Shown here piece after piece: positions 2,201 through 33,165 of a stretch of DNA of 44,035 nt. The notes under the pieces were generated by a model that made no database searches, was not told where the DNA came from, and saw only the letters and a list, made by a program, of their open reading frames with translations. Location: the NCBI GenBank assembly GCA_949282255.1, contig CASDPA010000017.1, positions 1 through 44,035 of the forward strand, written 5' to 3'. Made by a program: the position numbers and the translations under genes. Source of the stretch: an uncultured Spirochaetales bacterium (GTDB taxonomy: Bacteria > Spirochaetota > Spirochaetia > Sphaerochaetales > Sphaerochaetaceae). The stretch's first letter is position 1; the number at the start of each line of letters is the position of its first letter.

Positions 2201-2273
2201 GGGCCGCTAGCTCAGCTGGTAGAGCAGCAGACTCTTAATCTGCGGGTCAAAGGTTCGATCCCTTTGCGGCTCA
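2201..2273 (+). tRNA. tRNA-Lys (CTT)
   Basis: Cloverleaf with anticodon CTT in loop CTCTTAA, anticodon stem GCAGA/TCTGC, acceptor GGGCCGC/GCGGCTC with one G-T wobble, discriminator A. No encoded CCA. A second isoacceptor with TTT must lie elsewhere in the genome. Confidence 0.95.
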
Positions 2274-2290
2274 CGACTTATATACCAATC

Positions 2291-2328
2291 ACTGCGAAAG
2301 TGGTGAAAAACTGCGAGAGTGGTGGAAT
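2291..2328 (+). repeat. tandem near-duplicate of the tRNA-Leu 5' end
   Basis: Two adjacent 19-nt units (2291-2309 and 2310-2328) agree at 16 of 19 positions. The second unit contains the acceptor and early D-arm of tRNA-Leu; the first has no downstream cloverleaf. It looks like a partial tRNA duplication or a slipped recombination product. Confidence 0.55.
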
Positions 2329-2392
2329 TGGTATACACGCTAGTCTTAGGAACTAGTGCTTCGGCTTAAGGGTTCGAGTCCCTTCTCTCGCA
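2313..2392 (+). tRNA. tRNA-Leu (TAG)
   Basis: Class II tRNA with anticodon TAG in loop CTTAGGA, acceptor GCGAGAG/CTCTCGC and a short variable arm around TGCTTCGGCTTA. Discriminator A, no encoded CCA. A near copy of its 5' end precedes it (see the repeat at 2291-2328). Confidence 0.94.
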
Positions 2393-2403
2393 AGAGTCAA
2401 AAT

Positions 2404-2475
2404 GCGAAAGTAGCTCAGTGGTAGAGCTCCACCTTGCCAAGGTGGATGTCGCGGGTTCAAGTCCCGTCTTTCGCT
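2404..2475 (+). tRNA. tRNA-Gly (GCC)
   Basis: Cloverleaf with anticodon GCC in loop TTGCCAA, anticodon stem CCACC/GGTGG, acceptor GCGAAAG/CTTTCGC, discriminator T. Last gene of the cluster, followed 8 nt later by a terminator hairpin. No encoded CCA. Confidence 0.95.
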
Positions 2476-2483
2476 TCAAAAAT

Positions 2484-2511
2484 CTCCTTACTGCTAGTAA
2501 GGAGTTTTTAT
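2484..2511 (+). terminator. Rho-independent terminator of the tRNA operon
   Basis: A perfect 9-bp stem CTCCTTACT/AGTAAGGAG with a 3-nt loop, followed directly by a T-run. From here to 2674 I see nothing further. Confidence 0.85.
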
Positions 2512-2674
2512 TTGCGCAAGACATTTGAATATGAAAACTGGAATACTGTGATAAAGATAAGACTATTATCGATGCAGAGGAATGGTTCGATACATGATTA
2601 AGTGATTACATAGAATACCTATTTTTCTTTTTGACCTGAAAATACAAAGAAAGAGAATAAAGTGTTATAAACAC

Positions 2675-2701
2675 GCAAAAAGGCCGCATCTACGGCCTTT
2701 T
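2675..2701 (-). terminator. terminator of the small beta-barrel gene
   Basis: Stem AAAAGGCCG/CGGCCTTTT with loop CATCTA, 19 nt past the stop codon of the minus-strand gene. Read on the minus strand, the hairpin runs into TTTTTGCG. The symmetric A/T arms mean it could also stop plus-strand transcription. Confidence 0.8.
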
Positions 2702-2719
2702 GCAATATAATGCCTCTCC

Positions 2720-3307
2720 TCAGAATTTATATTGGATTCCAGCTTTTGCGGCCCAGACAAACAGCAAGTTTTCGCTCTTACTGCTCCCGCTTATTATCGA
2801 AGATGAAAAAACAGTCTCTCTCAAAACTTCATACCCGACCTGCCCTTCTGCGAAAAGACCGATATTGTCGGTTATATCCGCCTGCAACCTCAAAGCAGCC
2901 AGCAAAGCAAGATTATGTTGAGATAATTTCGCTCCATCATCTCCATCGGATCTGAACTGGTAATCTGCTCCTCCGCCAATTAGAAGCGATGCAGATTTAC
3001 CCATGTTCAACCTGTAGTAGACGAAAGCCTCAGCAAGCAATAAGGCGTATGGATCCGTAATATCGGAAGAAGGAATATAGATATCAGCTCCGAGACCTAA
3101 TGAAAGAGCGATGCTATCACCAAAATAGAAAAGCGCATCAGCATTCACAGGAACATAATCGGAAGTCAAATTAGTGTGTTCTCCAAAATCAATCCTCTGG
3201 GAATATCCGGAACCAAGGCCGATGTAGATATCTGTTTTGGATTTTGCAGCAAAAATGCTGGTACATAGAACCAAAACCAATAGGAATACAAAAATCTTTT
3301 TCACCAT
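2720..3307 (-). CDS. small outer-membrane beta-barrel protein
   Basis: A secreted protein of 195 residues. Residues 1-20 form a Sec signal peptide (MVKKIF, a leucine/valine-rich core, then FAAK). The remainder has alternating hydrophobic/polar strands with many Gly and aromatic residues and ends in QYKF; the terminal Phe is the usual signal for insertion of outer-membrane barrels. About eight strands would fit the length. The ATG at 3307 is preceded by AAGGAGA at correct spacing; an ATG six codons upstream overlaps that ribosome site and is unlikely. It is a single-gene unit, divergent from nrdA and closed by a terminator. I do not recognise a specific family; OmpX/OmpA-like is only a structural guess. 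Confidence 0.75.
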   Translation of the reverse strand: MVKKIFVFLLVLVLCTSIFAAKSKTDIYIGLGSGYSQRIDFGEHTNLTSDYVPVNADALFYFGDSIALSLGLGADIYIPSSDITDPYALLLAEAFVYYRLNMGKSASLLIGGGADYQFRSDGDDGAKLSQHNLALLAALRLQADITDNIGLFAEGQVGYEVLRETVFSSSIISGSSKSENLLFVWAAKAGIQYKF

Positions 3308-3391
3308 AAAAAATTCTCCTTTCATTTTGCAGCTGGCTTTTTCAGCTATCCTACTCCATTAAAAACACAAAAATAAAATAAAGTTACCTTA

Positions 3392-3421
3392 TTGATATTA
3401 ATTATTATTATTTTGTATTAT
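3392..3421 (+). promoter_or_regulatory. nrdAB promoter, predicted leaderless
   Basis: TTGATA (3392-3397), 18-bp spacer, TATTAT (3416-3421). The -10 box ends 8 nt before the nrdA ATG, so transcription should begin at or within 1-3 nt of the start codon. No Shine-Dalgarno sequence precedes the ATG. I see no convincing NrdR box in the 123-bp divergent region. Confidence 0.5.
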
Positions 3422-3429
3422 TACTACTT

Positions 3430-5949
3430 ATGAAAATTACAAAACGCACAGGTGAAAAAGAAACGTTTGATGAAAAGAAAATCTTGCAAGCATTGGAAAA
3501 AGCGTTCTCTGCAAGCAGAGAAATCATAAATGACGAGGACTTGTCCACTCTTCTTGTCATGATAACAGCTGAAACAAGGCAAAAGGATGGCATAAGCGTC
3601 GAGGAGATACAGGATATAGTTGAGAACAAGCTGATGGAAAAAGGCTTTTTCAAAACGGCAAAAGCCTATATTCTTTTCCGGCAGGAAAGAGCCAAGCTCA
3701 GGGAAGAAAGAAACAATATCAAAACCTTTTTCCCCGAATATCCTGCAATCAAAGATATCTTGTCAAAGATACAGCAAAACTTTCCAGATTCCCAATATTC
3801 TCTTTCGATTCTTGAAAGAAAATTCTTATCTTTTTTAAAGGATGGAATGGAAGCAAAGGAGAGGTTGGATGCACTCATCAAGGCTTCGGTGGAACTTACA
3901 AAGCCGGAAGCTCCTTCTTGGGAAATGATTGCCGCCCGATTTCTTTACTTTGGTTTCAATGTGAGACTTGCCGATGATGTAAAAAAAAGGAATATCGGTT
4001 CTTTTTATGATAAATTGGCTTATCTTACTGAAGAGGGCTTATATGGCCGTTACATACTCACCGGTTATCCAAAAGAAGAAATAGAAGCCTCTTTCTCTTT
4101 CATCAAAGAGGAAAGAAACGACCTGTTCACCTACTCCGGGTTAGATCTGGTCTTGAAAAGGTATCTCATAAAAACCCATGACGGGACTGTACTGGAAACT
4201 CCGCAGGAAATGTTTCTAGGAATCGCATTGCATCTTGCATTGAATGAAAAAACGGACAGGATGGTCTGGGTCAAAAAGTTTTATGACATGCTCTCAAAGC
4301 TGGAAGTTACGATGGCGACCCCAACCCTTGCCAATGCGAGAAAGCCGTTCCACCAGCTCTCATCCTGTTTCATCGATACGGTTCCTGACAGCCTCAACGG
4401 AATCTACCGCAGCCTGGATAATTTTGCAAAGGTAAGCAAATTCGGTGGTGGAATGGGACTTTACTTCGGAAAGGTCCGGGCAAACGGTTCCTCCATCCGC
4501 GGCTTTGAGGGTGCGGCAGGTGGTGTGATACGATGGATCAAGCTTGTAAACGATACGGCAGTCGCTGTCGACCAGCTTGGTGTGAGGAGCGGTGCGGTTG
4601 CAGTATATCTCGATGTATGGCATCGTGATCTGCCCGAATTCCTTAATCTCCGCACGAATAATGGAGATGACAGGATGAAAGCACATGACGTTTTTCCCGC
4701 CGTATGCTACCCCGACTACTTCTGGCATCTTGCAGAACACGATATCGATGCGGCCTGGTACATGATGTGCCCACATGAAATATACTCAATAAAGGGATAC
4801 AATCTTGAGGATTACTTTGGAAAGGAATGGGAAAAGAAGTATCTTGACTGTGTCAATGATGCAAGAATCAGGAAAAGGGTGATGAGTGTAAAGGACATCA
4901 TAAGGCTTATCCTGAAATCTGCAGTCGAAACTGGAACGCCTTTTGTATTCAACAGGGATACTGTCAACAGGGCCAACCCCAACGGCCATAAAGGCATCAT
5001 CTATTGCTCCAACCTATGTACGGAAATAGCCCAAAACATGTCCCCGATTGAAGAGTTATCCATCGATATGGAAACGAGTGACGGGGATCCGATAGTTGTC
5101 ACAAAGACAAAACCGGGGAATTTTGTTGTGTGTAACCTTGCTTCCCTCTCGCTTGGCAACCTGCCTGTTGAGAATCGTGAGTATTTGAGAGAAACGGTTC
5201 GCAATGCAGTCAGGGCTTTGGATAATGTGATAGACCTCAATTTCTACCCTGTTGAATATGCAAAGCATACAAATAAGATCTACAGGGCGATCGGGCTTGG
5301 AGTCTCCGGATACCACCATATGCTTGCAAAACATAAGATAAGATGGGAAAGCCATGAGCATCTCGATTTTGCCGACAAGCTTTTTGAGGACATCTGCTAC
5401 TATGCGATAGAAGCATCATGTGACATAGCATCTGAAAAAGGAAGCTACAGCCTTTTCGATGGATCCGACTGGCAAAACGGAGCATTCTTCGACAAAAGAG
5501 GATACTCTTCGCCGCGCTGGTCAAAGCTGAAGAAAAAGGTTGCAGATACGGGTATGAGAAACAGCTATCTTCTGGCTATAGCCCCCACAAGCAGCACAAG
5601 CATAATAGCAGGGACCTCGGCAGGAGTTGATCCTGTAATGAAAAAATTCTTCTATGAGGAGAAGAAAGGGTCGATGCTGCCTCGTCTTGCACCAGAGCTT
5701 TCCCCTGAGACATGGTGGTACTATAAAAATGCACATGAAACAGACCAGATGTGGTCAATCAGGGCAGCAGGAACCAGGCAGAGGCACATAGACCAATCAC
5801 AGTCGGTCAACCTTTACATAACCAATGATTTTACGATGAGACAGATTTTGAATCTCTATCTTGAGGCTTGGAAATCAGGAGTAAAGACACTTTATTATGT
5901 CAGAAGCAAGGCCCTCGAGGTGGAGGAATGCGAATCCTGTTCATCCTAA
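3430..5949 (+). CDS. nrdA: class I ribonucleoside-diphosphate reductase, large (alpha) subunit
   Basis: Reduces ribonucleoside diphosphates to deoxyribonucleotides together with the R2 protein encoded next to it. The 839-residue protein begins with an ATP-cone allosteric domain (about 1-90), so activity control by ATP/dATP is likely. Active-site residues are visible: Cys313 (in SSCFID) and Cys568 (in VVCNL) as the redox pair, and Asn528, Cys530 and Glu532 (NLCTE) as the radical-site triad. The phosphate-binding stretch PTSSTSIIAGTSAG and the C-terminal shuttle cysteines Cys834 and Cys837 are also present. It overlaps the ribosome site of nrdB by its stop codon. The start is fixed by the ATP cone even though no ribosome site is visible. 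Confidence 0.97.
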   Translation: MKITKRTGEKETFDEKKILQALEKAFSASREIINDEDLSTLLVMITAETRQKDGISVEEIQDIVENKLMEKGFFKTAKAYILFRQERAKLREERNNIKTFFPEYPAIKDILSKIQQNFPDSQYSLSILERKFLSFLKDGMEAKERLDALIKASVELTKPEAPSWEMIAARFLYFGFNVRLADDVKKRNIGSFYDKLAYLTEEGLYGRYILTGYPKEEIEASFSFIKEERNDLFTYSGLDLVLKRYLIKTHDGTVLETPQEMFLGIALHLALNEKTDRMVWVKKFYDMLSKLEVTMATPTLANARKPFHQLSSCFIDTVPDSLNGIYRSLDNFAKVSKFGGGMGLYFGKVRANGSSIRGFEGAAGGVIRWIKLVNDTAVAVDQLGVRSGAVAVYLDVWHRDLPEFLNLRTNNGDDRMKAHDVFPAVCYPDYFWHLAEHDIDAAWYMMCPHEIYSIKGYNLEDYFGKEWEKKYLDCVNDARIRKRVMSVKDIIRLILKSAVETGTPFVFNRDTVNRANPNGHKGIIYCSNLCTEIAQNMSPIEELSIDMETSDGDPIVVTKTKPGNFVVCNLASLSLGNLPVENREYLRETVRNAVRALDNVIDLNFYPVEYAKHTNKIYRAIGLGVSGYHHMLAKHKIRWESHEHLDFADKLFEDICYYAIEASCDIASEKGSYSLFDGSDWQNGAFFDKRGYSSPRWSKLKKKVADTGMRNSYLLAIAPTSSTSIIAGTSAGVDPVMKKFFYEEKKGSMLPRLAPELSPETWWYYKNAHETDQMWSIRAAGTRQRHIDQSQSVNLYITNDFTMRQILNLYLEAWKSGVKTLYYVRSKALEVEECESCSS

Positions 5950-25719: not shown

Positions 25720-27006
25720 ATGAAAAGATCTGAAATGATGGAAATATTGAATGCTGGCTTCATACATTCTGTAAAGGATGTGCTTTGGGGAAATATCCCG
25801 TTTACGCGGGAGATGAAAGATCTTTTGGAGATCGGACCGGTACAAAAACTTGCCAGGATAAAACAGAACGGGCCTACGTATCATATCTATCCGGGAAGCG
25901 TCCATACCAGGCTCAACCATTCAATCGGCGTATATCACCTTTCAAGAGAGATACTCTTATCGATGGCAAGAAAGAACGACAATCTTCCACTTACAAAAGA
26001 AGGCATGATGAGTTTCTTGTGTGCATCATTGCTTCATGATATCGGACACTTCCCCTATGCCCACTCGCTCAAGGAACTTGCAGTAAAAGACCACGAGCAG
26101 ATCGCCGCAGAGCTGATTATCGGAAATGATGAGCTGAAACATGCAGTGGAAAAGACGGGGGCAAATCCAGAGATGACGGCAAGCATAATAAACAAGGATG
26201 AGCCCTGCAATAAAAAGGAAACCGGATTCTATAGGAGCATCCTCTCAGGAACGCTCGATCCGGACAAGCTCGACTACCTTTCCAGGGATGCTTATTTTTC
26301 CGGGGTTCCATATGGCACACAAAATACGGATTACATCATATCCTCGATGGATTTCAGATCCTGGCAGCCGGTACTGGAGGAGGATGCAATGGTATCCATA
26401 GAGCACGTGCTCTTTTCAAAGTATCTGATGTACAGGACTATCTATTGGCACAAAGGTACACGGAGCGCAACAGCCATGATAAAAAAAGCGCTGCTTGCAG
26501 GAATCAAGGCAAATGTCATAAGTTATGAGGATTTGTATCTGAAGGATGATGATGAGTTCAGCAGTTTGGGAAAGGATTGCTCTTTTGGGCCTTTTTCTCT
26601 CATACGCGATGTTGAACATAACCGGTTATTGGAGAAAAGATACGAGGCCGATCTGGGCTCAGGCTCAAGATTCGAGCAGCTTGCACTTAATCTGGAAACC
26701 AGGGATAAGGCGGAGGACGCGGTTTTCAGAAAGCTTAAGAAAACCTATCCATCCCTGAAAGAATATCAAGTGGTGATAGACATTCCGGAACCGGTCAATT
26801 TTGAGACGGATATAAAAATCCTGTGCCATGACGGAAGCATCGTGGACAGCGGGGATGAGTGGACCGTGTTCAGCAAGGATGTTGGCAGGCGATTTTCCTC
26901 ACGCTTGAGAAAGCTGTCGCTTTTTGTTCCTGATTATGTTACATTTGCCTCAGCAGAAAAAGCGGTTGCGGAGGCGAACTTTGCAGGAGAACAAGAAAAG
27001 CTATAA
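25720..27006 (+). CDS. HD-domain phosphohydrolase
   Basis: A 428-residue metal-dependent phosphohydrolase of the HD superfamily, related to dNTP triphosphohydrolases and the YwfO group. Metal motifs: RLNHSIGVYHL near 65-75, then HDIGHFPYAHSLK near 106-118, and a later Asp in DPDKLDYLSRD. Substrate unknown; a dNTPase role is possible. The start lacks a ribosome site; TGC-TAATTT seven nt upstream is a weak leaderless promoter candidate. It overlaps the ttcA start by 26 bp. Confidence 0.85.
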   Translation: MKRSEMMEILNAGFIHSVKDVLWGNIPFTREMKDLLEIGPVQKLARIKQNGPTYHIYPGSVHTRLNHSIGVYHLSREILLSMARKNDNLPLTKEGMMSFLCASLLHDIGHFPYAHSLKELAVKDHEQIAAELIIGNDELKHAVEKTGANPEMTASIINKDEPCNKKETGFYRSILSGTLDPDKLDYLSRDAYFSGVPYGTQNTDYIISSMDFRSWQPVLEEDAMVSIEHVLFSKYLMYRTIYWHKGTRSATAMIKKALLAGIKANVISYEDLYLKDDDEFSSLGKDCSFGPFSLIRDVEHNRLLEKRYEADLGSGSRFEQLALNLETRDKAEDAVFRKLKKTYPSLKEYQVVIDIPEPVNFETDIKILCHDGSIVDSGDEWTVFSKDVGRRFSSRLRKLSLFVPDYVTFASAEKAVAEANFAGEQEKL

Positions 27007-27784
27007 GGACCTGATAAACGGAGACATCCCTCCTTGGGTGATGCGCTTCATAAAACAGACGGGCAAAGGCATAAACGATTTCAATATGATCAAGGATGGG
27101 GACAGGGTGCTTATCGCGGCATCAGGTGGGAAGGACAGCCTGGCATTGTCCCTTGCATTGTCCATACGAAGGAAATGGCTTCCTATCCATTATGATCTTA
27201 AAGCGCTGATGATCAATTGGATCGAGCATCCGATACCGGATATCTGGAAAGAAAAACTGAAGCAGTACTATGACGATCTTGGTATAGATTTTGAAATCGT
27301 GGATGAAAATCAGTTCCCCTGCTCTTTCAAAGGAGAATTCAATTGCTATCTATGCTCGCGCAACAGACGCAGGATCCTTTTTGAGTATGCGGGAAAAAAT
27401 GAAATAAGGCTCATTGCCATGGGGCATCATTTGGATGATCTTGTGGAAACAAGCCTGATGAATATTTTTTTCCGAGCCAGTTTCTCCACCATGCAGGCGG
27501 TCCAAGATTTTTTCAATGGAAAACTTTACATAATCAGACCGATGATAGAAGTCCATGAATCGGTCACAAAACGTCTTGCCGAATGCTACGACATACCTTG
27601 TATCAAGCCCGTATGCCCATACGATCAAACAAATGTGAGGGCAAAACTGAAGCCGATAGTCGGAGAATTGGTACACATCGACAAGCTTGCAAGAGAGCAT
27701 GTTTTTGCCGCCCATAAGCTTGACAACCCGTTTTCAGAAGGTGGAAATACACCTTTATTGGAACAAGTGGAAAAAAATAGTTAA
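26981..27784 (+). CDS. ttcA: TtcA-family tRNA 2-thiolation enzyme
   Basis: An ATP-dependent, iron-sulfur tRNA thiolase; TtcA makes 2-thiocytidine at position 32. The 267-residue protein has the PP-loop SGGKDS (48-53) and three cysteines, Cys122, Cys125 (NCYLC) and Cys212 (KPVCPYD), expected to hold a [4Fe-4S] cluster. Also present are the GHHLDDLVET motif and the YDQTN-type C-terminal motif. I chose the TTG at 26981, which has GGAGG six nt upstream; it overlaps the HD gene by 26 bp. The N-terminus is shorter than in E. coli TtcA. Confidence 0.87.
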   Translation: MQENKKSYKDLINGDIPPWVMRFIKQTGKGINDFNMIKDGDRVLIAASGGKDSLALSLALSIRRKWLPIHYDLKALMINWIEHPIPDIWKEKLKQYYDDLGIDFEIVDENQFPCSFKGEFNCYLCSRNRRRILFEYAGKNEIRLIAMGHHLDDLVETSLMNIFFRASFSTMQAVQDFFNGKLYIIRPMIEVHESVTKRLAECYDIPCIKPVCPYDQTNVRAKLKPIVGELVHIDKLAREHVFAAHKLDNPFSEGGNTPLLEQVEKNS

Positions 27785-27851: not shown

Positions 27852-28916
27852 ATGAAGAAGAGTTTGATATTTCTGCTGTCACTGGTATTGATATCATCCC
27901 TAACTGCAGCCGTACAGCTACCGCTGACCGGGGTGGAGGGGGATTTCAATCTTTATGACAGGTACGGCAATAAAATCGATGTGATGGACGCCGGTCCATA
28001 CGCAGAGGAAGGTTATATCATCCTTACAGCAAAAGGTGCATCCTTCACATGCCCATATGGAGAGATACATCTGGGGGCGGATACACTCTTCACAATCCTG
28101 TCTTTGGACGAGACCGCTCCAGTGTTGTATCTTGTCGACGGCAAAGCGAATTTCATCAGCTATGATGATTTTTACATTGAGATCTATACGCCGGTAAGCC
28201 TCGTCGCCTTTGATAAGAAAGGAGAGTACGTTGTTGAAACGACGACGGATACAGAAAACATCTACAATCTTTCAAAAGGCAAGATGATGGTGCTCAACGG
28301 ATTGTCAGGAAACAGCAGCGTGCTTGAAAATCTGACCTACATAGAGATGCTCGAGGGAGGACTCATACTTCCAGTCTCTTATGACTTATATGAAAGTATC
28401 TCCATTCTTCATGACAATGCTCCTGCAAAGGTTCCTTCCATGCCCTCAGTCAAGATTGATGAAAAACTGGTCGATGTTGAAGAAATGCCTGCAGAGCCGG
28501 CTGTAGAGGAAGAAGCTGCTGTTACAGTTCCTCAGAAGGCTGAGATTATTGCTTACACGGATCTCAAGAAGACGGAGCCGGAAAAACCGGTTTTGTCCGT
28601 TTCTGCAGAGCTTATCGACATACCGGAGCCTGCTGTTCCAAGCGCACCGATTCTGAATGTCGATTATACAAGGCCCTCAAAACCTGAATTGGCTGTGCAA
28701 ATACAGACAATGATCGTACCAGAGGTTCCAAGCCAGCCGGTTGTATCGGCATCATTCCAATCGCTGAACAGCACAATCCCCTCTGCGCCTGTTTTTCTTG
28801 AGCCGGAAAGCATATTCGTAAACAAGTTGCAGGCCCCATCTGTAACGATTATGGATACGGTACCTTCTGCTCCAAGTGTGACGTCCAATATCGGAATTGA
28901 AAAAAAAACAATCTAG
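27852..28916 (+). CDS. secreted protein with Pro-rich C-terminal repeats; 5' part of a probable frameshifted envelope gene
   Basis: A 354-residue ORF. Residues 1-20 are a Sec signal peptide. Residues about 25-175 form a beta-rich domain with loose similarity to FecR-type ligand/cell-wall-facing domains (uncertain). From about 195 on there is a Pro/Val-rich linker with recurring V/I-P-S-x-P units spaced 15-27 residues (VPSMPSV, VPSAPIL, VPSQPVV, IPSAPVF, VPSAPSV). AAGAGG precedes the ATG. The ORF stops at a TAG eight nt past an A9 tract (28900-28908). The -1 frame from that tract is open straight into the beta-barrel ORF, so the two probably make one protein of about 1150 residues. Confidence 0.7.
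   Translation: MKKSLIFLLSLVLISSLTAAVQLPLTGVEGDFNLYDRYGNKIDVMDAGPYAEEGYIILTAKGASFTCPYGEIHLGADTLFTILSLDETAPVLYLVDGKANFISYDDFYIEIYTPVSLVAFDKKGEYVVETTTDTENIYNLSKGKMMVLNGLSGNSSVLENLTYIEMLEGGLILPVSYDLYESISILHDNAPAKVPSMPSVKIDEKLVDVEEMPAEPAVEEEAAVTVPQKAEIIAYTDLKKTEPEKPVLSVSAELIDIPEPAVPSAPILNVDYTRPSKPELAVQIQTMIVPEVPSQPVVSASFQSLNSTIPSAPVFLEPESIFVNKLQAPSVTIMDTVPSAPSVTSNIGIEKKTI
28900..28908 (+). other. A9 slippery tract joining two ORFs
   Basis: Nine consecutive A contain the heptamer A AAA AAA in the zero frame of the upstream ORF. After a -1 shift, or with one extra A, translation continues through AAC AAT CTA GTT without a stop into the barrel ORF. A small GAGC/GCTC hairpin (28928-28939) lies 20 nt downstream and is a weak stimulator at best. 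Confidence 0.6.
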
Positions 28917-29002
28917 TTTTTGACACCGAGCTCAAGCTCAGGGCCTATTCCGACAGCGCTACAGGAGAGACAAATATAACAACCGCCGTCATACCATCTT
29001 TT

Positions 29003-31318
29003 GTGTACGGCGGTTTAAATTTGTCCTTTTCCATAGATTTGAACAGAATACTCAACCAAACTGGAAGGAAGGACTCAAGCCTCCCTTTTTGGCTTAGCTA
29101 CGGTTTATCCTTCATAGACAGATTCGAATACCACTCTTCTGATGAAGGATTTACCGTAGCATTAAATCGTACTGACCCTTTGATCGGAGATGCATTGGGA
29201 CTGTTTCCTGGAGTTGTACACGAATGGGACGGGGTGGATGAAAAGCTGAGTCTGAACAGCATTCTTAAAAGCAGCAAGATATCATTCCGTATTTTTGCAG
29301 AGGATCTTTCTTTCTCAAATTATGATGAAACCGATCCGAGAATGATTTTGGGATCAGGAATAAGCTTCACCCCATTTTCGGTATGGCCCTTCTCCCTCAG
29401 TTTTTCACTTATAAGCGATTATGCCTATAAAATGCCGGAAAACACACGGCTTTTTCCTTCCGTGCATGCGGATATTCCAATCCTTAACACCTCTTCCTTT
29501 CTGCTTTCTTTCCGCTTAGGCTATATCCAGGCCATAACGGACTATGAAAACTGGAAGACGAATTTTCATGATAATGCTTACTATGCAGGCCTTCCATTTT
29601 CGTTTGGAAACACTGTGATAAGCGTTGGGGCCATGCTGCAAGGAAAGAGCATACGCTACAACATGTTCAATCCCCAATTTGACATGCAGACTGAAGCTAG
29701 GCCGATTGCGCTTTTCATCGACGGGGACATGACAACAAGATATTTCGATCTTGCATTGAATGTTTTTTTCAATTATGACCAGCAGGCCGATCTCATAATC
29801 TGGCAGGATTCATATTTCGATATCAGCCTTGGATTCAAGCTTGGAAATATAGATTTTCTTGTAGGAGCAAGAAGACAGGGAGAGATAACAAAGGGCTTTT
29901 TCGAATCCAGCGACTACTTTTTGGGAATAGAGACCCAAACAGGAAGCTTGAAATCAAAACTGCAATTCCGTGTATTGGATGGTAAGCCACAGTTGGGCTT
30001 CACCTCCTCCTTTGCCCTGATAGATCTTGAAAACTTGGATATGGAGAAAAAAGGCGAAAGGTTCTTCGATCTGAAATTTGATCTTGGCTTTGACAAGCTG
30101 ATGGGAAAACGCGCGTATTTTATCCTCACTCCGATACTGTTTTTGGGAAACGACGATTATAACATCGCATTCAGATTTCCCTTTTACCTGCAAGTCGAGG
30201 ATTCGCGTTTTGTCATGATCTCTGTCAAAGCGGACGAATGGTGGGATGTGTTCAAGCCCATTTCAAGTGTCTACGATTTTTTCGATTCCATAACCGATGT
30301 ATTCCAGCTTGTGGAACAAATAAGCCTGGGGACAGACAAATCTTTCATCCACCTGAAAGCAAACAGGTATTCAACAAGGAACGACATATTCTTCGACAAT
30401 TACAGATCCTTTGATGCGCTCAGTCTTGAAGCGGAGTTCAATTTCCACAACATGAAGATCGGGGCTTACATAGACGATCTGGAAGCACCAAGAATAATGG
30501 ACATATCCCTGGGTATATACCCATTCGATTCCGAAGGCTGGGGACTGCTTGTTAACACCCCTACAGAGATAAAGGCAAAGAACAGGAATGATTATGACAT
30601 AACCACATTCATCGGGGCATCCCTTTACATACCTTTTTTCAATAACAAGCTCGATTTTTCATTTTATGTTTACAGCGAGATATCTGCAAAATATATTGAT
30701 GGAATCCCTGAGGACATTAGGATAGTATATGATTTTGAGAACAACAGGTTCTTCGGATATCTAATAGGAGCTGCTGTCAACTGGACGAACAGGAACCTGT
30801 CCGTCGGGCTTTCAGGAGGAATCAATTCAGGAAAACTCAATCCAAACACCTACAATGCATTCACAAGCCTGAACCCGGACAAGGAAAAACCCAATACAGA
30901 TGTGGAAGGGATTTCGGCATATATTGTGGCGGATTTCAGGCTTGAATTCGATTTCATAAGCCTCGTAGTCAAATACACCATGCCGAACATAGTCTCAATT
31001 TTCAAGGATTTCAACAACTATTCGGGAGACATGTTCACAATCAAATTCAATTATATGATCCCAAACGGGGTTGGACTCAGCTTCCAGATATCAAGGACCG
31101 ATTTCATATCAACCTTGAACACCATCTTTGATTACAATAACTACTTCAATAGTCCGAGCACGATTTATGCCGTATCTCTTTTGAAAGAATTTGACAACAT
31201 GGCTCTTGAAGCCACCTTCGGAACAGGTGCAATATATGAACGTGGAGAATACATGAATTCATACAATCTTGTGGAAGTCGCCCCGATGCTAAGAATCAAG
31301 ACAAGAATCGGTTTTTGA
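29003..31318 (+). CDS. large outer-membrane beta-barrel protein; 3' part of the probable fused gene
   Basis: A 771-residue beta-barrel with many alternating strands, aromatic belts and a C-terminal RIGF ending in Phe, as expected for an outer-membrane protein. It has no signal peptide. The GTG at 29003 has no ribosome site, and the same frame is open upstream to 28901 and reads as more barrel-like sequence (VFDTELKLRAYSDSATGE). Secretion therefore requires fusion to the preceding ORF through the A9 tract. The gene ends 38 bp before mutL. Transport substrate or surface role unknown. Confidence 0.7.
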   Translation: MYGGLNLSFSIDLNRILNQTGRKDSSLPFWLSYGLSFIDRFEYHSSDEGFTVALNRTDPLIGDALGLFPGVVHEWDGVDEKLSLNSILKSSKISFRIFAEDLSFSNYDETDPRMILGSGISFTPFSVWPFSLSFSLISDYAYKMPENTRLFPSVHADIPILNTSSFLLSFRLGYIQAITDYENWKTNFHDNAYYAGLPFSFGNTVISVGAMLQGKSIRYNMFNPQFDMQTEARPIALFIDGDMTTRYFDLALNVFFNYDQQADLIIWQDSYFDISLGFKLGNIDFLVGARRQGEITKGFFESSDYFLGIETQTGSLKSKLQFRVLDGKPQLGFTSSFALIDLENLDMEKKGERFFDLKFDLGFDKLMGKRAYFILTPILFLGNDDYNIAFRFPFYLQVEDSRFVMISVKADEWWDVFKPISSVYDFFDSITDVFQLVEQISLGTDKSFIHLKANRYSTRNDIFFDNYRSFDALSLEAEFNFHNMKIGAYIDDLEAPRIMDISLGIYPFDSEGWGLLVNTPTEIKAKNRNDYDITTFIGASLYIPFFNNKLDFSFYVYSEISAKYIDGIPEDIRIVYDFENNRFFGYLIGAAVNWTNRNLSVGLSGGINSGKLNPNTYNAFTSLNPDKEKPNTDVEGISAYIVADFRLEFDFISLVVKYTMPNIVSIFKDFNNYSGDMFTIKFNYMIPNGVGLSFQISRTDFISTLNTIFDYNNYFNSPSTIYAVSLLKEFDNMALEATFGTGAIYERGEYMNSYNLVEVAPMLRIKTRIGF

Positions 31319-31356: not shown

Positions 31357-33165
31357 ATGAATAAGATAAATCTTTTATCCCCCCTGCTCTCTTCCAGGAT
31401 AGCCGCAGGAGAAGTCATAGAACGCCCTGAATCCGTTTTGAGGGAATTTCTGGATAATGCCATAGATGCAGGAAGCAGCGAAATAACCATCAGTATCGAA
31501 GGCGGAGGAATTGATTCTATCAGCGTAAGCGACAACGGTGGAGGCATATTCAAGGAGGATCTTGAGATAATTGCAAGCCGGCATGCCACGAGCAAGATAA
31601 AGGAAGATGACGACCTATATAGGATAAAGACTCTAGGATTCAGGGGAGAAGCCCTGTATTCAATTGCAAGTGTCAGCGAGCTGACAATAAAAAGCCTGGA
31701 TTCAAATACGGGAAGGACCAACAGTGTGACAATAGATAACGGGATCAGAAAGGAGATGGTCACATCCTCACCGATAAAGGGAACGACTGTGACTGCAAGA
31801 AACCTTTTTGGTGAAATTCCCGCCAGAAGATCGTTTTTGAAGAGGCCGCAGACTGAGGCGCAGATGTGCCGCAACCTCGTAATCTCAAAAGCCCTTGCCT
31901 ATCCGGATATCAGTTTCAAATTCTACAGCGACGGGGCTCTGAAGCTCAATTACGAAAAAGCGTCCTCATTAAAAGAAAGGGTCATGATGCTTTATCGTCC
32001 CATGGGAATCCAAGATGCTGATGTGCTTCATCTTTTGGGACACGGCGAAGAATACAGCATCGATATAATCTGCACATCGGGTGCGGCAAAAAGAAGCGAC
32101 AGGAAGGAAATAAGAATATATGTCAACGGCAGAGCCGTAGAGGAATACTCTCTCGTGCAAGCCGTCACTTTCGGCTACGGGGAGCTTCTTCCAGGAGGTT
32201 CTTTTCCATATGCCTCGGTATTCATAAAAGATAATCCGGAGCTTGTGGATTTCAATATACACCCTGCAAAAAAGGAGGTGAAGCTCCGTAACCATGCACA
32301 GATCCATCATGCCATTGTCCTTTTGATCCAGAACGGTGTTGCCCGCAGGATTCCTGAGATCAAGGCTGTGCAGAACGAATTTGAATTCACACAAGATGCT
32401 GATAAAGCGGACCAAGAGCGTTTTTTCAAGACTTTTTCCAGCACTCATGACAGTTTTGCCTGTAAGGATCCGGTCCAGAGGCTTTCTTCGGCAAAGACAG
32501 CATACAGCTTCAATACGGAAACCAGACCGGCAGACGATTCCTGGATCCTCAAGGCAAAGGAATTGAGCAGGCTCAAGGAAGAGGAAAAGAAAGAGGCTTT
32601 TTCTGAGGAGAAAGAGGAAGAGGACAAGGATTGGAAGTATATCGGACAGGCCTTCAACCTTTTTTTGATAGTGCAGAAAGGGGAAGATCTGTATTTCATA
32701 GACCAGCATGCGGCTCATGAAAGAATGATATATGATGAGCTTCTCAGCCAAACCACGGTTCAAAAGCTCCTAATTCCGATAAGATTGGAAGTGGAAAAGG
32801 ATATCGATGAGTTTCTTACCTCATACTCATACATATACACAAAGCTGGGGATAATGATAGCCAAGACAGCAGACGGGTATTGGGAGATATCGGCACTGCC
32901 CGCTGTAGCCAGGCAGATAGAGGCGCAGGTGGTAAACTATATTTCAACCAATGCAGGAGATGAGAAAGAACTTGAGACCGGCCTTTTTGCGATAATCGCC
33001 TGCAAGGCCGCAATCAAGGCAGGAGACGAGATTGACCGCTACAGTGCAGAGGCTCTGATAAAAAAGGTTTTTGAGATGGAGCAGCCCGCTTGTCCACATG
33101 GCAGGACATTCCTCATAAAACTGAATGAAAAGGAGCTCAGGGGGATGGTGGGTAGGACAAAGTGA
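31357..33165 (+). CDS. mutL: DNA mismatch repair protein MutL
   Basis: The 602-residue mismatch-repair coordinator. The N-terminal GHKL ATPase has Glu30 and Asn34 (REFLDNAIDAG), Asp59 (SDNGGG), RHATSK and GFRGEAL. An acidic, charged linker (about 340-430) precedes the C-terminal dimerisation/endonuclease domain. The metal motif begins DQHA at 449-452 and continues AHERMIYD, with Asp where the consensus DQHA(X)2E(X)4E has its last Glu. ACKAAI and CPHGRT are present. This marks the nicking type of MutL. The ATG at 31357 has GGAGG five nt upstream. The end overlaps the next minus-strand gene by 29 bp. Confidence 0.95.
   Translation: MNKINLLSPLLSSRIAAGEVIERPESVLREFLDNAIDAGSSEITISIEGGGIDSISVSDNGGGIFKEDLEIIASRHATSKIKEDDDLYRIKTLGFRGEALYSIASVSELTIKSLDSNTGRTNSVTIDNGIRKEMVTSSPIKGTTVTARNLFGEIPARRSFLKRPQTEAQMCRNLVISKALAYPDISFKFYSDGALKLNYEKASSLKERVMMLYRPMGIQDADVLHLLGHGEEYSIDIICTSGAAKRSDRKEIRIYVNGRAVEEYSLVQAVTFGYGELLPGGSFPYASVFIKDNPELVDFNIHPAKKEVKLRNHAQIHHAIVLLIQNGVARRIPEIKAVQNEFEFTQDADKADQERFFKTFSSTHDSFACKDPVQRLSSAKTAYSFNTETRPADDSWILKAKELSRLKEEEKKEAFSEEKEEEDKDWKYIGQAFNLFLIVQKGEDLYFIDQHAAHERMIYDELLSQTTVQKLLIPIRLEVEKDIDEFLTSYSYIYTKLGIMIAKTADGYWEISALPAVARQIEAQVVNYISTNAGDEKELETGLFAIIACKAAIKAGDEIDRYSAEALIKKVFEMEQPACPHGRTFLIKLNEKELRGMVGRTK

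Follow-up and report, generated by a model that had tools for sequence, protein, structure and literature searches.

In the dnaX gene of Thermus thermophilus, which encodes the tau and gamma forms of a DNA polymerase subunit, a coding run of nine adenines (A9) leads by polymerase slippage to two products with a common N-terminus, and Escherichia coli reaches the same end by ribosomal frameshifting; the conserved length of nine A among homologues is regarded as an argument for purposeful slippage (PMC1088944). A9 frameshift cassettes in E. coli shift at about 40%, with an efficiency that tracks the length of the run, and in the orfA/orfB genes of IS elements and in Mg-chelatase a poly-A run joins two ORFs in a -1 relation, fused homologues being present as well (PMC3711429). 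In Shigella spa13, polymerase slippage adds a C-terminal part of about 112 residues to a fraction of the product (PMC5009743).

We describe here a locus of an uncultured Spirochaetales bacterium that can be compared to each of these systems. It lies on contig C17 of a draft genome (51 contigs, 2.35 Mb, 96.75% complete), in a stretch of 44,035 nucleotides that was analysed as a whole and is called the window below. Similar to dnaX, a coding A9 would give two products sharing their N-terminus, but the protein is an exported one, and the frames have exchanged roles: in dnaX the long form is read from the template frame and the short one arises by slippage, whereas here, with the exception of one species (G031), the template frame is that of the short form. 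As in IS elements and Mg-chelatase, the run connects two ORFs in a -1 relation and has fused homologues, but the output is apparently an exported domain that either carries a membrane barrel or lacks it, and a conserved peak in mRNA structure is located about 30-140 nt downstream, not near the slip site. Compared to spa13, the extension would be of about 800 residues, and the protein and its context are unrelated (PMC5009743). The kind of mechanism is already known; the gene family appears to be undescribed, and no earlier account of it or of such an output was found in the open-licence literature.

Gene layout and the junction

The first frame, ORF1 (27852..28916, + strand), encodes a short product of 354 aa in which, from an orthologue alignment with limits judged by eye, we distinguish a signal peptide (residues about 1-20), an N-terminal domain (about 21-185) and a Pro-rich linker (about 190-349). 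Upstream it is neighboured by a TtcA-like PP-loop ATPase (26990..27784, +), and downstream of the locus lies MutL (31357..33165, +); since mutL also comes next after the gene in the relatives inspected, the locus is orthologous in them. ORF1 ends with ...GGA ATT GAA AAA AAA ACA ATC TAG, which gives the short form a C-terminus ...IEKKTI and a zero-frame stop TAG at 28914-28916 (+). The A9 tract itself (28900..28908, +) has G on its 5' side and C on its 3' side, and contains the in-frame heptamer A_AAA_AAA (28901..28907, +), a candidate site for ribosomal -1 slippage. The second, barrel-like frame (28901..31318, +; 805 codons, C-terminal ...IKTRIGF) lies at -1 relative to ORF1; immediately upstream it is closed by a TGA (28898..28900, +) that overlaps the first A of the tract. 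Since the two frames have just 16 nt in common, any switch between them is confined to this overlap.

The original prediction had described an upstream ORF with a signal peptide that stops just past nine A containing A AAA AAA, and a barrel ORF open back to 28901 with neither a signal peptide nor a ribosome site, and this description holds: the earliest possible start in the barrel frame is a GTG at 29003, where no obvious ribosome site and no signal peptide were found. A -1 shift on A_AAA_AAA yields a joined product of 1155 aa, in agreement with the secreted protein of about 1150 residues predicted earlier; it reads ...EKKNNLVF... across the junction, with the junction peptide ...IEKKNNLVFDTELK.... 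Inspection of the 34 other A9 runs of the source genome revealed none at a comparable frame break. L091 had the look of such a site, but proved to be non-coding or antisense.

Fused and short-only relatives

Relatives outside the A9 groups have both parts fused in a single ORF of about 740-1600 aa with no A run at the junction, a few of them being cut by contig ends, and other genera among the genomes examined are mostly fused. The fused orthologues show that ORF1 and the barrel are parts of one protein. The reverse pattern, in which orthologues are always separate genes with signal peptides of their own, was looked for and not seen.

One could argue, in view of frames that overlap or adjoin as those of coupled genes do, that two proteins are made and that translation of the barrel begins internally, through coupled re-initiation close to the ORF1 stop. 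We consider this very unlikely, because the barrel frame does not extend upstream past the A9, offers neither export signal nor obvious ribosome site, and corresponds to a part of a single protein in relatives.

In the genus of the window, seven species (G014, G001, G022, G013, G005, G060 and G030; loci L071, L073, L075-L079) have only an ORF1-like gene in the slot before mutL, and the barrel was not found in their genomes; the short form is therefore able to exist alone. In a distant relative in G103 (L147, about 2255-3607 of the reverse complement), which was set aside, two frames overlap in +1 relation; the barrel is shorter, and the N-terminal part is a different one that, judged by eye, looks like a 5'-nucleotidase/metallophosphatase.

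Conservation of the A9 tract

The barrel frame, used as a query against 60 related genomes, gave orthologues in which the open frame likewise stopped close to this position, and the junctions were then read individually. Eleven species of the window's genus have a junction of A9 followed by C with the barrel frame at -1, down to a barrel identity of 34%: G000, G003 (92%), G034 (66%), G010, G002, G017, G071, G063 and G067 (about 40%), and G020 and G021 (34%). The zero frame reads the tract as [G/C]AA AAA AAA AC in all 11 and meets a stop 2-8 codons past it, at a codon position that varies; the overlap of the frames is 16-37 nt in eight of them. A twelfth species, G031 (L006; 41% barrel identity, tract at 1500 of the reverse complement), retains the A9 as AGA AAA AAA AAC with flanks that make ORF1 and barrel one frame of 1223 codons. 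Stops are close by in both alternative frames, and slippage would thus yield the short form. The default product of G031 appears to be inverted, being the long form. A tree of joined proteins places the 12 A9 genes of this genus in a single clade (100/100) that comprises four deep lineages.

Ten further members, from a sister genus, g26, came from a profile search across the order; all of them are located upstream of mutL and split in a -1 relation. Half of them possess A9 followed by C in another codon phase, for example CTA AAA AAA AAC TAG, and in the barrel tree these A9 members are scattered over deep lineages. The other five (G086, G079, G081, G082 and G080; L136, L137, L138, L140 and L141) are free of an A run and carry CCCCTTTC in its place, with a zero-frame [C/G]CC CCT TTC [A/C]TG GTG inside the overlap that includes the heptamer C_CCU_UUC, absent from the corresponding position of the overlap in the five A9 species of g26. 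We infer that C_CCU_UUC serves as the slip site in these five genes, and it is possible that in g26 one slip site was exchanged for another; the zero-frame sequence past CCCUUUC also looks conserved, which makes the exact slip point there uncertain.

According to run lengths taken from consensus assemblies, mostly of uncultured organisms, the tract is exactly nine A long, with C always next, in 17 of 17 genomes of the two genera (12 and 5), the frame is broken in 16, and no run of 8, 10 or 11 A occurs at the junction in any of them. Two earlier suggestions have to be weighed against this constancy. A homopolymer in a gene for a putative surface protein is a classic contingency locus, and replication slippage altering the A run could leave the barrel on in some cells and off in others. 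Random switching, however, would be expected to give some runs of 8, 10 or 11, and the sole in-frame case, G031, owes its frame to the flanks and not to the length of the run; phase variation is accordingly unsupported, and we hold it to be highly improbable. Even less probability can be given to an error in sequencing or assembly, or to a pseudogene undergoing decay. Homopolymers are prone to errors and the assembly is a draft, but the same A9 is found in 17 assemblies and the same break in 16 from different species, including the 92%-identical orthologue, which came from a second collection, and this excludes an assembly error for practical purposes; the long open frames on both sides and the conserved key residues also speak against this reading.

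The tract also stands out from its surroundings. Lysine outside it is encoded in the 17 A9 genes by AAA in 224 of 598 codons (37%; 0 of 11 in G073) and mostly by AAG, and as AAA is a minority among the Lys codons the A9 is kept against codon preference. Elsewhere these genes have hardly any run of at least six A. Each of nine relatives has just 3-14 copies of the string [CGT]A9C in its genome; given this rarity and the lack of a comparable break at other A9 runs, a junction shared by 17 genomes is beyond chance. Nine A's kept across phases, and no other length, are in keeping with purposeful slippage rather than with phase variation.

Protein parts

Searches with ORF1 and the barrel in Pfam, NCBIfam and solved structures gave nothing above noise; for the barrel, no Pfam match was obtained and one member alone gave a weak match to an NCBIfam OMP entry at 0.017. 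The ORF1 domain looks FecR-like by eye, although the Pfam FecR profile matched none of 11 members. The Pro-rich linker of G020 (L010) contains near-identical tandem repeats (PEVPTAPEMTATVEE) whose copy number differs between G020 and G021. Most members end in the C-terminal aromatic of the barrel signal (...GF/..SF/..F), and together with the strand pattern and export by a signal peptide this leads us to infer that the long form is a putative outer-membrane barrel. Structure models of the two parts reached pLDDT values of 31 (barrel, strand-rich) and 28 and were unusable, as the alignments comprised two or three sequences only.

mRNA structure

The stability of mRNA structure was expressed as z-scores against synonymous-codon shuffles. 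For each of the 12 A9 genes in the genus, the best hairpin within about +19 to +127 past the A9 has a z of -1.9 to -4.2; in 14 fused homologues the equivalent protein position gives -1.35 to +1.6. A scan of the whole gene shows a single strong peak about +30 to +140 after the A9, and its hairpin is the strongest local one in about 3.3 kb in eight of 12 A9 genes (one tie) and in none of the 14 controls, counts which overstate the evidence because related species are not independent, although the pattern spans four deep lineages and a second genus, g26, where a similar peak lies downstream of the slip site. In the window the hairpin (28966..29027, +; +58 to +119 from the A9) is the strongest local structure across the entire gene. 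A strong hairpin is present at the matching place in 21 related loci and exceeds coding expectation in most; its sequence is lineage-specific, and both sequence and position vary among lineages.

Within the window's genus, no enrichment was seen at the distance of a classical stimulator (mean z of 0.11 in the 60 nt from +6), and there was no signal of a nascent-RNA hairpin just upstream of the A9; reading of the junctions by eye gave no consistent Shine-Dalgarno-like motif upstream of the slip site. A simple intrinsic terminator was rejected, since a consensus scan placed no site at the hairpin and most hairpins have no U tract, and a fixed spacing of the hairpin to the slip site or the stop codon is unsupported (Spearman 0.09, gaps of -2 to 89 nt). 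As a guess, the hairpin could be a 3'-end protector or a translation-coupled attenuator of a short mRNA.

Discussion

Of the readings offered at first, programmed frameshifting or transcript slippage receives strong support from the exact A9 and -1 relation over deep divergence and from the fused orthologues, which the suggested comparison did bring to light outside the A9 groups. From the sequences compared, it is very probable that the locus undergoes programmed recoding, at the level of the polymerase or of the ribosome. In standard expression ORF1 would be read to the stop 2-8 codons past the A9, giving a short exported protein made of a signal peptide, a beta-rich domain and a Pro-rich tail; in a fraction of events a net -1 shift on the A9 would lead the full-length protein on into an outer-membrane barrel of about 800 residues.

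Between the two levels we favour the polymerase as the more likely one, by a modest margin. RNA polymerase slipping on the A9 would produce a mixed pool of mRNA, A9 messages giving the short form and A10 messages the long one, to which ribosomes slipping on A_AAA_AAA possibly contribute. A length of nine that is constant in differing phases suits polymerase slippage, as a heptamer requires just 7 nt, and the retention of the A9 in G031 is best explained by it. The features expected of such slippage, a homopolymer of about nine or more A/T with its length conserved among homologues, and conserved sequence in both short and long products together with fused homologues, were found, the former in 17 genomes. 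Slippage on A cannot explain the five g26 species that are split in the absence of an A run, nor can the conserved RNA structure, sitting downstream, act on a polymerase at the A9.

Ribosomal frameshifting alone, on A_AAA_AAA in the window's genus and on A_AAA_AAC or C_CCU_UUC in g26, would give the same two products, and we regard it as a serious, though less probable, competitor. In-frame X_XXY_YYZ heptamers are correct in every A9 lineage, C_CCU_UUC occurs in the overlap of all five non-A9 split genes and in none of the five A9 species of g26, and mRNA structure is enriched downstream. However, a stimulatory structure would be expected close to the slip site (about 5-9 nt), whereas the peak is found at +30 to +140 with a variable spacing; no Shine-Dalgarno-like element recurs upstream by eye; nine A's are conserved though seven suffice; and the conservation in the zero frame beyond CCCUUUC leaves the slip point uncertain. 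Ribosomal slippage would account for the heptamers and for the five split genes that have no A9. Besides polymerase slippage, which we prefer for the A9 genes, it may also be used within the family, by analogy to dnaX.

A more speculative reading, which we think unlikely but worth stating, is a two-part device: the A9 or C_CCU_UUC would set the ratio of soluble to barrel-bound product, and the fast-changing hairpin at +30-140 nt would couple this choice to the fate of the mRNA. The hairpin would fold only behind ribosomes that terminate in the short frame and would protect or end the short transcript, ribosomes on the long frame would melt it, and lineages would exchange the slip site, the phase of the tract and the default frame with both products retained. 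A structure peak so far from the slip site is the remaining puzzle.

To our knowledge, few conserved programmed frame changes exist in ordinary bacterial chromosomal genes. Annotation pipelines would call such a locus two genes or a pseudogene, and the signal-less barrel would be lost. Fused, split, in-frame-A9, non-A9 and short-only versions make up a natural experiment in one family, across which slip site, phase and codons change and the products persist. If our reading is true, recoding would decide whether the exported domain is made in free form or attached to a large outer-membrane barrel.
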